Source: Fluctibacter corallii
GTDB lineage: Bacteria; Pseudomonadota; Gammaproteobacteria; Enterobacterales; Alteromonadaceae
Direction: 5' to 3'
DNA length: 64,000 nucleotides
NCBI RefSeq assembly: GCF_025751585.1
Contig: NZ_JAOWKX010000010.1
Coordinates: forward strand, 1-64,000
Position 1 is the first letter of the stretch. Each line of letters begins with the position of its first letter. Below, piece by piece: positions 58,633-61,742 of this stretch. Both the position numbers and the translations under genes were made by a program. The notes under the pieces were generated by a model. That model was not told where the DNA came from and searched no databases. It saw only the letters and a program-made list of their open reading frames with translations.

Positions 58633-58660
58633 GTGAGCGTAAATACTACTTTGGTACAGT

Positions 58661-58688
58661 TATGTAGCGCTATCGATACTTGTACAAT
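58661..58688 (+). promoter_or_regulatory. Putative promoter of the double-glycine peptide operon
   Basis: TTGGTA (58661-58666) and TACAAT (58683-58688), spaced 16 bases apart, lie 77 bases upstream of the first small peptide gene. The leader between promoter and gene contains no frame of note. Confidence 0.5.
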
Positions 58689-58765
58689 AAGATTTCATGT
58701 AAGGAAGCATGTTATGCGTTGGTAGTGGTTACTCGCGCACTGTCTAATAGATCAAGGAAAAGATT

Positions 58766-58969
58766 ATGAAAGTACTACATTTAATTAATGACAATCAGGC
58801 GTTGAATATTCACGGTGGTTCGCTCGATGACCGCACTTCGCCGACCGCTACTGTGGTTTGGTCTGGAGACGGTGGAATGCCAAGTACTGAATTAGCTGAA
58901 ATGTTTAATATCAATTCATCTGGGCGCAGACAAGGTGTTTCATTTGTTAACTTTCACCCTAGTATGTAA
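58766..58969 (+). CDS. Small double-glycine leader peptide (67 aa)
   Basis: A strong Shine-Dalgarno (AAGGAAAAG) precedes the ATG. Residues 1-18 (MKVLHLINDNQALNIHGG) look like a double-glycine leader: hydrophobic residues at -12 (I7), -7 (A12) and -4 (I15), and Gly-Gly at -2/-1. The mature part would be 49 residues (SLDDRTSPTATVVWSGDGG...), polar with a short hydrophobic start. It lies just upstream of a better leader-bearing peptide gene and under the same promoter. It may be a second peptide or a modified product. No family is recognised. Confidence 0.6.
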   Translation: MKVLHLINDNQALNIHGGSLDDRTSPTATVVWSGDGGMPSTELAEMFNINSSGRRQGVSFVNFHPSM

Positions 58970-59039
58970 ATGGAAATAACTACCTTAACATTGGTTGGTG
59001 TCACACACAGAACTGTAAATATTTAAAAGGAATTAGGCT

Positions 59040-59288
59040 ATGTTAGTTGAAACATCAATGGCGAAATTAAACGACCATGAATTGTGCACTGTTTCAGGCG
59101 GGGTGGGTTGGAATGCCGTCTCCGCTGGAGCGACCATGGTGGCGATTGGGGTTGCTGTTGCGGCAACGCCTGTGGGTTGGGTCGGAGCAGCTGGGGCAAC
59201 ACTCGTCACCTTTGCTGGTGGCTATTCTATAGGTAGTGGTGTCAGAAGAGACGTCGAAAGTTACATCAATAAGCGCTTTGGTGGATAA
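59040..59288 (+). CDS. Candidate class II bacteriocin precursor (82 aa, double-glycine leader)
   Basis: The ATG follows AAGGAATTAGG. Residues 1-21 (MLVETSMAKLNDHELCTVSGG) match the double-glycine leader in all key positions: L10 at -12, E14 at -8, L15 at -7, V18 at -4, G20-G21 at -2/-1. The mature peptide would have 61 residues, with a Gly/Ala-rich hydrophobic helix (GVAVAATPVGWVGAAGATLV), Gly-x3-Gly-type spacings such as GYSIG, and a basic tail (VRRDVESYINKRFGG). This is the form of membrane-acting class II bacteriocins/microcins. No peptidase-ABC transporter is in the window. Confidence 0.75.
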   Translation: MLVETSMAKLNDHELCTVSGGVGWNAVSAGATMVAIGVAVAATPVGWVGAAGATLVTFAGGYSIGSGVRRDVESYINKRFGG

Positions 59289-59298
59289 CGGAAATATT

Positions 59299-59475
59299 AT
59301 GCAACTCAAACCAGTAAAACATCCTCATTATATTCATGCATTCGGACTCCTTGGAGCCGCGATAGGGGCGGGTATCGATTGGTACTTCAATATCTTTCCG
59401 ACGATGGTGGGTATTTTATGTCTATCTGGCATGTTGGTGACATACGTGATTAGTCAGTATTTCGTAGGCGATTAA
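59299..59475 (+). CDS. Small membrane protein, candidate bacteriocin immunity protein (58 aa)
   Basis: It starts at an ATG with GGAA upstream, ten bases after the bacteriocin-like stop. It has two transmembrane helices (HAFGLLGAAIGAGIDWYFNI and MVGILCLSGMLVTYVISQYF) separated by a short loop, the form of immunity proteins for class II bacteriocins. It ends just before an intrinsic terminator, so the three genes form one unit. An upstream in-frame start at 59236 lies inside the bacteriocin gene and is unlikely. Confidence 0.6.
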   Translation: MQLKPVKHPHYIHAFGLLGAAIGAGIDWYFNIFPTMVGILCLSGMLVTYVISQYFVGD

Positions 59476-59488
59476 ATTGCTATTTTAG

Positions 59489-59510
59489 GAGCAGTGATAC
59501 CGCTGCTCTT
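59489..59510 (+). terminator. Terminator of the double-glycine peptide operon
   Basis: GAGCAGTG, loop ATAC, CGCTGCTC, with one G-U pair, followed by a short TT. It lies just downstream of the immunity-like gene. Confidence 0.65.
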
Positions 59511-59718
59511 GTCGCCTCAAGGTAGTATATTAACGGCCGAGTCTCTGTGATACGGTCAGCCTCCAACCTTTTACTTGCTCATTTGTTTTTTCATATCAGT
59601 GTGTTTTATTCGTATTTCACATGTTTTTGTGAATATTGTGACTTTTGGCACATTTGTGCCGTGTCGTGTTTCCGTAAAGTATGCATCAACGAAACGGAAC
59701 ACAAAAAGGAAACAACAC

Positions 59719-60176: not shown

Positions 60177-61742
60177 ATGATGGAACGTCGCCAGTTTTTA
60201 AAAAATGCGTTGAATGCAACCACGCTGGTAGGAGGAAGTGCAGTGATGGCAAAGGCCGGCGCTTTCCCTTTGGGCGCAGCGAGCGCTAACATGTCAGTAG
60301 GTTCGCTTGCTATCGATACACTCGCGCAAAATCAGCAATACTATAAGCGCTTTAATGAAGCGTTAAAGGTAAAGCCCCATTTAAAAGCGTGGGAGGGTGT
60401 AACCGCTGACATCTCCCCGACTCAGGTGTCGTGGCAGGGAACGTTACCATCGCAAATGCATAACCATCATTTTTACAGGAATGGCCCAGGTCTACGAGTA
60501 AGGAATAAAACCCGTTATGCCCATTGGTTCGATGGCGATGGCCTTGTTAATCAGTTTGCGCTGCACAAAAACGGGGTAACGCACAAGGCAAAGTTTGTTG
60601 AAACCGAAAAATATCGTCGAGAAGAGAATGCAGGAAAGTTTCTGTATTCAAGTTCAGGGACGCGAATCGCCCATGCTGAACTAGCCAAAAGTCCACAAAG
60701 TATTAGTCAGGCGAATACGTCACTTTTGCCAGTCAATGGCGAATTGTGGGCATTGTGGGAAGCGGCTGCACCTTATCGAGTTGATGCTGAAACTCTGGAG
60801 ACCAAAGGCGAGCAAGCATTCTCAGATGCACTCAAAGGGGTACCTTTTTCGGCGCACCCGCACATAGATAGGCAAGGCAATATTTGGAATTTTGGAAAGG
60901 TTTCATTGTCTGGCCAATATGCTTTTGTGATTTACCACTTATCGGCAGCTGGACAGATGAAACAGTTCAAATTGGTAAACACCCCGCGTGATAGCTACGT
61001 ACATGACTTTGCGATGACCGAGCGTTACCTGATATTCTATTTGTCGCCGCTTATCAAAGGTAAGCGCAACGAAGTCTACACCGAGTCTTATTCATGGTAC
61101 GGACAAAAAGAAGGGCGAGTGTTTGTTGTTGATAAAAACACCTTGGAAGCCGTGGCAGATATTCCAACAGAACCTGGCTTTGTCTATCACTTCGGAAATA
61201 GTTGGGAGCAAGGCAACGCATTGGTCGTGAACTTATGTTGGTATGACGATGCATATGTGTTTAAAACGGCAATGGCTGATCTCGTTGGTGAGCAAGCACC
61301 TAACGTGAAATCTCGCGCTTCGCAGCTTGTAATTAATATGACAAGCAAAACGGCACAGTTGGTGAAGTCACCCCATGGTATGGAGTTTCCGATGTTTGAT
61401 GCTCAGTTTGTTGGGCAGAAAACTCAAATCCAAACTGGCATTATTCGAGGCAGCAACCCGGCAAACCCTCGCTACAACACGGTTGCAAGTTACAATACCC
61501 AAACTGACAACATGGATGCGTATGAATACGGAGAGAATGTCTATGTTGAAGAGCCTATTTTTGTGAAGAAGCAAGGCAGCAACAAAGAAGGCGAAGGGTA
61601 CTTGATTCACACGTATTTAGATTTTATCAAAGACCAGACGGGGGTGTCGGTATTCGATGCGCAGCACGTAGCTGATGGCCCGCTTGCCACTGCAACATTA
61701 CCTTACTATTTGCCACTTGGCTTTCATGGAACCTATGTGTAA
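60177..61742 (+). CDS. Carotenoid cleavage oxygenase (RPE65-type), exported
   Basis: The 521-residue protein has an N-terminal RRQFLKN twin-arginine-type start followed by a hydrophobic stretch. It shows the four-His iron centre of carotenoid oxygenases: H227 or H229 (FSAHPHIDRQG), H276 (SYVHDFAMTERYLIFYLSP), H338 (FVYHFGNSW) and H517 near the C-terminus (LGFHGTYV). These non-haem iron enzymes split carotenoids or related polyenes with oxygen. Export by Tat is suggested by the N-terminus. It follows the DUF2141 gene by 35 bases. The substrate is unknown. Confidence 0.9.
   Translation: MMERRQFLKNALNATTLVGGSAVMAKAGAFPLGAASANMSVGSLAIDTLAQNQQYYKRFNEALKVKPHLKAWEGVTADISPTQVSWQGTLPSQMHNHHFYRNGPGLRVRNKTRYAHWFDGDGLVNQFALHKNGVTHKAKFVETEKYRREENAGKFLYSSSGTRIAHAELAKSPQSISQANTSLLPVNGELWALWEAAAPYRVDAETLETKGEQAFSDALKGVPFSAHPHIDRQGNIWNFGKVSLSGQYAFVIYHLSAAGQMKQFKLVNTPRDSYVHDFAMTERYLIFYLSPLIKGKRNEVYTESYSWYGQKEGRVFVVDKNTLEAVADIPTEPGFVYHFGNSWEQGNALVVNLCWYDDAYVFKTAMADLVGEQAPNVKSRASQLVINMTSKTAQLVKSPHGMEFPMFDAQFVGQKTQIQTGIIRGSNPANPRYNTVASYNTQTDNMDAYEYGENVYVEEPIFVKKQGSNKEGEGYLIHTYLDFIKDQTGVSVFDAQHVADGPLATATLPYYLPLGFHGTYV

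Follow-up and report, generated by a model that had tools for sequence, protein, structure and literature searches.

The subject of this analysis is a group of three small open reading frames (ORFs) close to the end of a 64,000-nucleotide stretch of the Fluctibacter corallii genome (positions 1 to 64,000 of contig NZ_JAOWKX010000010.1, RefSeq assembly GCF_025751585.1; hereafter the window, lying on contig C1 in our numbering). The three ORFs lie within window positions 58661-59510, are all encoded on the + strand and stand between a gene for a methyl-accepting chemotaxis protein (MCP) upstream and a DUF2141 gene downstream. The original prediction, made from the nucleotide sequence, proposed that they form a bacteriocin operon with an immunity protein, and each ORF was found in its proposed place: orf1 (58766-58969; 67 residues), orf2 (59040-59288), an 82-residue precursor with a 21-residue Gly-Gly leader and a microcin-like, Gly/Ala-rich and cationic core of 61 residues, and orf3 (59299-59475), a predicted two-helix membrane protein of 58 residues and candidate immunity protein. 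Their codon use is gene-like, the scores of orf1, orf2 and orf3 being reached by 2, 2 and 7 of 139 null (spurious) ORFs, respectively, and both orf1 and orf2 are preceded by a purine-rich stretch that reads like a ribosome-binding site.

The orf2 leader is of the textbook Gly-Gly type, ending in MAKLNDHELCTVSGG, and carries the consensus residue at every predicted position (Leu-12, Glu-8, Leu-7, Val-4, Gly-2 and Gly-1). Within the first 35 residues of ORFs of 40-130 residues this leader motif occurs once in the window, namely in orf2, versus twice in 40 order-2 Markov resamples of 64 kb each. A leader profile scores orf2 at 24.9 bits with orf2 in the profile and at 7.9 bits with orf2 left out, and a search of the genome with the profile that includes orf2 returned it at E 2.5e-5. 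The mature part is Gly/Ala-rich, hydrophobic and basic, as had been predicted (38% Gly+Ala, grand average of hydropathy (GRAVY) +0.63, isoelectric point 9.7), and has a calculated mass of about 5.97 kDa. By score cut-offs orf2 belongs to no curated family: the microcin V model PF17508 (gathering cut-off 27) gave no match at E≤0.1, and TIGR01847, used as a leader finder, missed it. No ATP-grasp maturase was recognized by reading among the window ORFs of at least 150 residues. A plasmid or phage origin of orf2 was considered and dropped; a plasmid collection yielded only two weak matches, both from N. gonorrhoeae (E 0.04), and none of 272 pattern matches in viral contigs was confirmed, a separate phage collection not being searched.

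Relatives of orf2 were sought in 395 genomes of the family, nine of which (own genome included) matched at E≤0.01. Five of these match at E≤1e-9: F. corallii itself, G341 (Rheinheimera aquimaris), G376 (Alteromonas lipotrueiana), G064 and G371. The matches in G042 and G275 lie inside frames of 270 and 314 residues and were taken as chance, that in G391 is unassigned, and that in G277 is a Gly-Gly peptide of another subfamily, as is the second of the two matches in G064. When named genomes were scanned, 4 homologues were confirmed out of 78 pattern matches, in A. lipotrueiana, R. aquimaris, Noviherbaspirillum aridicola and a Paraburkholderia sp., so that the peptide family reaches into Betaproteobacteria. 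The last two homologues show a Gly-Gly leader on inspection, the Paraburkholderia one reaching only 6 bits with the leader profile. Invariant in a five-sequence alignment are an SGG triplet, a Trp in the core and the string GVAxAATPxG, and the Gly-Gly and hydrophobic leader positions are conserved in orf2 homologues, where their loss would have spoken against the prediction. As a separate observation, Gly-Gly peptides of a GGISxYEGAGAV subfamily adjoin a 344-residue Rhomboid-domain protein (PF01694) in two genomes (L015:1498-2983 in G064 and L012:385-1659 in G277).

The predicted two-helix nature of the orf3 product agrees with its structural model, a helical hairpin of residues 9-30 and 35-56 (mean predicted local distance difference test score (pLDDT) 79), a fold too simple to be telling. 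As regards its company, 63-residue partners similar to orf3 lie directly 3' of the peptide gene in both R. aquimaris and A. lipotrueiana. For neither partner did any of 1000 shuffles reach the score of its comparison with orf3, and BLASTP aligns orf3 with the R. aquimaris partner and the two 63-residue partners with each other. A small ORF that reads as membrane-spanning also follows the peptide gene in G064, G371, Noviherbaspirillum, G167 and G012; inspection of the Paraburkholderia locus revealed no small ORF at that place. The distant relative in G012 lies between a gene for an HlyD protein and one for a C39 peptidase-containing ATP-binding cassette (ABC) transporter (PCAT), with an 89-residue ORF following, a layout that matches a classical microcin operon. 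Where the original prediction suggested looking for all three genes as a conserved set, the set that recurs has two genes, of the orf2-orf3 type, as orf1 has a poor leader and no homologue of it was found.

Export was predicted to depend on a distant transporter, and indeed no C39 transporter was found in the window, while the genome holds two C39-domain ABC transporters, both on contig C13. One of them, a PCAT at about 337 kb, aligns with the bacteriocin transporter 4ry2 over residues 40-723 with Cys, His and Asp conserved; this catalytic triad was read off the 4ry2 alignment and not via the CvaB numbering of PMC9746304. It is preceded by an HlyD protein (HlyD_3, E 5e-17), so that the genome does contain a C39 transporter, whose absence would have told heavily against the prediction, and with it an intact triad and an HlyD-type partner. 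These genes belong to a graspetide-like locus (L006:2820-7771; C13 at about 334-339 kb) made up of HlyD, PCAT, a solo LuxR-type helix-turn-helix (HTH) gene, a 64-residue ORF with a Gly-Ala leader and a TMAMGEEGG core, and an ATP-grasp protein (TIGR04187, E 1e-41, below its cut-off). The leaders of the 64-residue ORF (LKSNELENVAGA) and of orf2 (LNDHELCTVSGG) match at key positions. The second transporter (C13, 300 kb) is of the LapB/LssB type (TIGR03375, 879 bits, above cut-off) and was discarded as the orf2 exporter, its catalytic Cys position being Ala in a by-eye comparison with the PCAT domain; an OEP-OmpA protein, noted as regards a TolC-type outer-membrane component, adjoins it.

A C39 domain (E≤1e-20) is present in 204 of the 395 family genomes versus every one of the five that orf2 matches at E≤1e-9 (Fisher p 0.036), and in eight of the nine genomes matched at E≤0.01, the one without being G275 with its presumed chance match. 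In A. lipotrueiana, G371 and G064 the orf2 homologue and the C39 transporter are on different contigs, and in R. aquimaris they are about 820 kb apart (draft assemblies). Two other PCAT loci deserve mention in their own right: that of R. aquimaris (L047:6023-8841) holds several short Gly-Gly peptides, an ATP-grasp homologue and a 469-residue ORF that reads as radical-SAM-like, and L085:10073-11500 carries an array of nine short Gly-Gly peptides of about 40 residues, many with GGIGGSVSASV.

Leader profiles and two families led to further leader-bearing peptides in the same genome: a 100-residue peptide on C18 followed by a 68-residue ORF (reached through the single, below-cut-off match of TIGR01847), a 72-residue peptide at 423 kb of C13, about 86 kb from the exporter, followed by a 46-residue ORF, and a 47-residue peptide on C19 followed by a 149-residue ORF. 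Scoring 5,960 small ORFs in 0.97 Mb of own sequence with the leader profile left five at or above 18 bits, the next best reaching 5.3, although these five (the three siblings, orf2 and the 64-residue ORF) all contributed to the profile and the loci of their discovery are among the stretches scored. The genome thus has at least five leader-bearing peptides, of which four are encoded either on a different contig from the exporter or at a distance of about 86 kb, and a short ORF comes after the peptide gene in all four that are far from the exporter, a count without a chance control. Below the cut-offs, the siblings match microcin V PF17508 at best with E 5e-4 (21.1 bits; cut-off 27) and Bacteriocin_IIc with E 2e-4 (21.9 bits; cut-off 27.1). 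Around the 72-residue peptide (L050:9582-10927) we also noted an adjoining 94-residue zinc-ribbon-like protein (below cut-off), an adjoining 49-residue hydrophobic ORF and, nearby, an ORF that reads like a conjugation-helicase fragment.

The solo GerE/LuxR HTH protein between PCAT and the 64-residue ORF has 81 residues, and homologues on the same strand 3' of PCAT were found in 29 of 40 PCAT loci fetched from other family genomes, the gap to PCAT being -66 to +40 bases in 27 of those 29. These 40 loci come from the best-scoring C39 places and are not a random sample. An ATP-grasp homologue is present in 16 of them, and the regulator occurs without it in 13. The only GerE-like match in the other own-genome sequence (0.93 Mb) is a 198-residue protein (L004:8120-8716; E 1e-9 to the 81-residue protein), encoded 3' of the LapB-type secretion genes.

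Upstream of all five own peptide genes, at a distance of 64-151 bases (with orf1 taken as the first gene of the window cassette), lies the heptamer GKACAGT within a longer, looser similarity; the heptamer occurs in 2 of 81 other 200-bp upstream regions. The window copy (CGTAAATACTACTTTGGTACAGTTAT, 58638-58663, + strand), a putative LuxR-type operator, is the weakest of the five, with a leave-one-out score of 10.5 that 8 of 708 own control upstream regions reach. In a de novo motif search the five regions were equalled by 1, 3, 43 and 6 of 200 random sets of five at widths of 10, 14, 18 and 24 bases, respectively. A weight matrix built from the five own sites was then scored on sequence outside its training, where support was mixed. 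It places the upstream region of the A. lipotrueiana homologue (a region already seen when the element was noticed) above all 361 controls, only 4 of which score as high as the upstream region of one G064 peptide; nothing stands out at the eight remaining peptide loci from other genomes. Across 45 PCAT loci (the 40 above and five more), 4 of 11 precursors of the graspetide type score above the 99% point of 413 controls (11.4; binomial p 3e-6, or 1e-4 if the two sister loci count as one). An exact CTGT-N8-ACAG dyad, which has the layout of the V. fischeri lux box, stands before 2 of the 11 (sister loci) versus 2 of 413 controls (p 0.004), and the own element is related to this dyad as found before some graspetide precursors in other genera. 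At L006, L080, L083 and L084 the element sits at the end of the solo LuxR gene. The 81-residue LuxR-type protein may bind the upstream element, and the set of leader peptides is possibly under its control.

Some further sites are recorded here for completeness. A sixth strong own match (L050:10927) appears to be a training site that has been duplicated locally, and TCATGTAA was rejected as a shared element, being at chance level. In L073 and L074 (g3 genomes) an element-like site precedes a 71-residue ORF that starts MKNKLxKT and holds LTQVQQLxVFGG, and in L071 (also a g3 genome) such a site lies near the end of the stretch, with no later ORF listed.

The remaining parts of the locus fared less well than orf2 and orf3. 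The claim of two small genes with Gly-Gly leaders holds for orf2, whose leader is canonical, but orf1, with Gly-Gly at residues 17-18, scores only 1.1 bits with the leader profile (0.6 bits once orf2 is removed from it). Its product is acidic, including the core, and neither 390 family genomes (best E 0.003, within a 284-residue frame) nor viral contigs yielded a credible homologue; orf1 was therefore rejected as the second peptide of a two-peptide bacteriocin on the grounds of poor leader, acidic core and missing homologues. With a ribosome-binding-like stretch reading AAGGAAAAG and a codon score of 0.097, as high in 2 of 139 null ORFs, it is probably a gene of the same transcript as orf2 and orf3. 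The promoter-like pair at 58661 was dropped, as the promoter scan gave no + strand site of the sigma-70 type around 58661-58690. The predicted terminator is half borne out: a strong 11-bp hairpin (-15.7 kcal/mol) does follow orf3 at 59486-59511 (+ strand), but its tail (TTGTCGCC) is T-poor, giving a weak U-tail, and the terminator scan does not list it. Farther along, just 3' of the DUF2141 gene, the window has a gene of the RPE65 (carotenoid oxygenase) family at 60177-61742 whose product has a twin-arginine-like N-terminus by reading.

We favour, with moderate confidence, the interpretation that orf2 and orf3 encode the toxin and the immunity protein, respectively, of a class II microcin-like cassette that relies on export in trans and belongs to a dispersed set of peptides. 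It is the combination of leader, core, adjacent membrane partner and intact PCAT with adaptor that makes the microcin fit. In such a scheme the PCAT at about 337 kb of C13 would recognize the orf2 precursor through its Gly-Gly leader and cleave it after Gly21, and the mature peptide would leave the cell through the HlyD-type adaptor together with an outer-membrane protein of the TolC kind. The cationic 61-residue peptide, presumed to be antibacterial, would adopt a helical hairpin in the inner membrane of competing, related bacteria, and the two-helix inner-membrane protein encoded by orf3 would protect the producer. The cassette would be one of at least five leader peptides that share an exporter and, probably, an upstream regulatory element.

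A number of results weigh against this interpretation. Use of the C13 PCAT by orf2 is something we infer, because the transporter is not adjacent to orf2 and has a graspetide precursor as its neighbouring substrate. The orf2 product itself gives a poor AlphaFold2 model (pLDDT 55) and matches bacteriocin families only below their thresholds, namely TIGR03949 (class IIb bacteriocin, lactobin A/cerein 7B; residues 9-43, E 0.014, 15.1 bits against a cut-off of 21.5) and PF10439 (Bacteriocin_IIc; 11.3 bits against 27.1). The family is sparse, matches at E≤0.001 in an order-wide search with a four-sequence alignment coming from 3 of 394 genomes, one of them the own, and the G064 homologue is a pseudogene with an in-frame TGA. 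As for orf3, no Pfam model scores above cut-off, BLASTP gives no alignment with the A. lipotrueiana partner, and among the small ORFs of G064, G371, Noviherbaspirillum, G167 and G012 only that of G064 comes near it (7 of 1000 shuffles), the partners elsewhere showing no clear similarity. Gonococcal Nap peptides, moreover, are class II microcin-like and yet their antimicrobial activity was undetectable, according to PMC11798529.

The shared element is open to similar criticism. It was noticed by eye in 11 upstream regions, which makes the own-genome statistics post hoc, and 9 of the 10 peptide loci outside the own genome fall below the cut of 13.7. Few controls underlie the 99% cut, which is 11.4 with 413 of them and 13.7 with 361, and at 13.7 only 2 of the 11 graspetide precursors pass, both from sister loci; 7 of the 11 lack a high score, and a rank test on all 11 gives p 0.044. 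Near the PCATs of other genomes, none of 13 leader-profile-positive ORFs (from three loci) has GKACAGT upstream, compared with 6 of 361 controls, the two highest matches in the exporter loci of other genomes have no recognizable peptide gene after them, and only 3 hlyD upstream regions, of up to 46 examined, exceed the 95% point of controls.

Other explanations must be set beside a microcin-like cassette. Gly-Gly leaders and C39 transporters serve pheromones too, and the exported peptide could be a cell-cell signal or a biofilm or adhesion peptide, with orf3 as membrane sensor or chaperone. The sensor-type MCP gene directly upstream, the LuxR-type gene after the exporter in so many family loci and the acidic orf1 product, which is unlike a pore former, all point in this direction. 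We nevertheless consider a signalling role unlikely, given an orf2 core that is long, hydrophobic and glycine-rich as in the relatives of microcin V, and the short ORF that follows each of the four exporter-distant own peptide genes (again with no chance control). Alternatively, the peptide might act on its own population by autolysis or kin lysis, with orf3 tuning it. The model here would be the gonococcal Nap peptides, which PMC11798529 describes as cationic, microcin-like Gly-Gly peptides that promote stationary-phase autolysis and have an immunity-like gene adjacent, and gonococcal sequences are also the only, if weak, plasmid-collection matches of orf2. The nap island, however, comes with a C39 peptidase of its own and with a FapF-like channel (PMC11798529), neither of which was read beside orf2, where no channel-family search was made, and sparse homologues are what competition cassettes show, so that such self-directed activity seems quite improbable.

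It could also be supposed that the cassette is not exported at all, and that orf2 encodes a small hydrophobic toxin, one half of a pair serving as toxin-antitoxin system or phage defence, with a Gly-Gly motif that is a relic. The distance of the transporter and the isolation of the ORFs between the MCP and DUF2141 genes agree with this, but the leader residues are conserved in homologues and resemble the leader of the exporter-linked graspetide precursor, and a C39 transporter is kept in all five genomes with the strongest orf2 matches; we hold an unexported toxin to be rather improbable as well. Finally, the shortness of the ORFs and the one stop-broken homologue might suggest chance ORFs or decayed genes, an explanation to which we give very little credence, since two adjacent genes recur across genera and the codon scores fall in the upper tail of the null distribution.

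Placed among known systems, the cassette we favour comes closest to the class II microcins (microcin V and others), with which it shares a Gly-Gly leader, a Gly-rich core below 10 kDa, a downstream gene for a small membrane protein and a C39 PCAT with HlyD in the host genome. It departs from them in that orf2 (C1) is not near the intact PCAT (C13), where PMC11494933 places the genes of class II microcins close to that of the exporter and proposes that future searches be confined to this neighbourhood. It also departs from them in scoring below the PF17508 cut-off and in a host that is counted outside the Enterobacterales (GTDB: Enterobacterales; Alteromonadaceae), described microcins coming from Enterobacteriaceae according to PMC10233263. 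Likeness to the lactobin A/cerein 7B peptides of TIGR03949 is confined to the sub-threshold match given above. Graspetides (ATP-grasp ribosomally synthesized and post-translationally modified peptides, MvdC/MvdD-like) enter the comparison because such a locus holds the own exporter and a precursor with a Gly-Ala leader, and because the leader and upstream element are similar; unlike them, orf2 lacks both an adjacent ATP-grasp enzyme and a core of the graspetide type. The literature searches made here turned up no described Gly-Gly system in Alteromonas and no regulon of PCAT and solo LuxR-type protein.

Peptide gene and C39 transporter are on separate contigs, or about 820 kb apart, in each of the five genomes that orf2 matches at E≤1e-9, and F. 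corallii spreads four such peptides over four contigs. More tentatively, and with more doubt than conviction, we suggest that Alteromonadaceae possess a genome-dispersed arsenal in which an operon of hlyD, C39 PCAT and solo LuxR-type HTH would supply exporter and regulator, and in which a common leader and an operator resembling a lux box (either CTGT-N8-ACAG or a form with just the right half, GKACAGT) would link distant toxin-immunity cassettes and a graspetide precursor to that operon in trans. If so, a cassette would be free to move within the genome and still be exported and co-regulated, and microcin searches confined to the neighbourhood of PCATs would miss such cassettes. Should the exporter-encoded solo LuxR-type protein control the set through the common operator, marine bacteria could be searched for orphan bacteriocins with a sequence handle, and the sharing of one exporter by toxins encoded far from it would have a model open to direct test.
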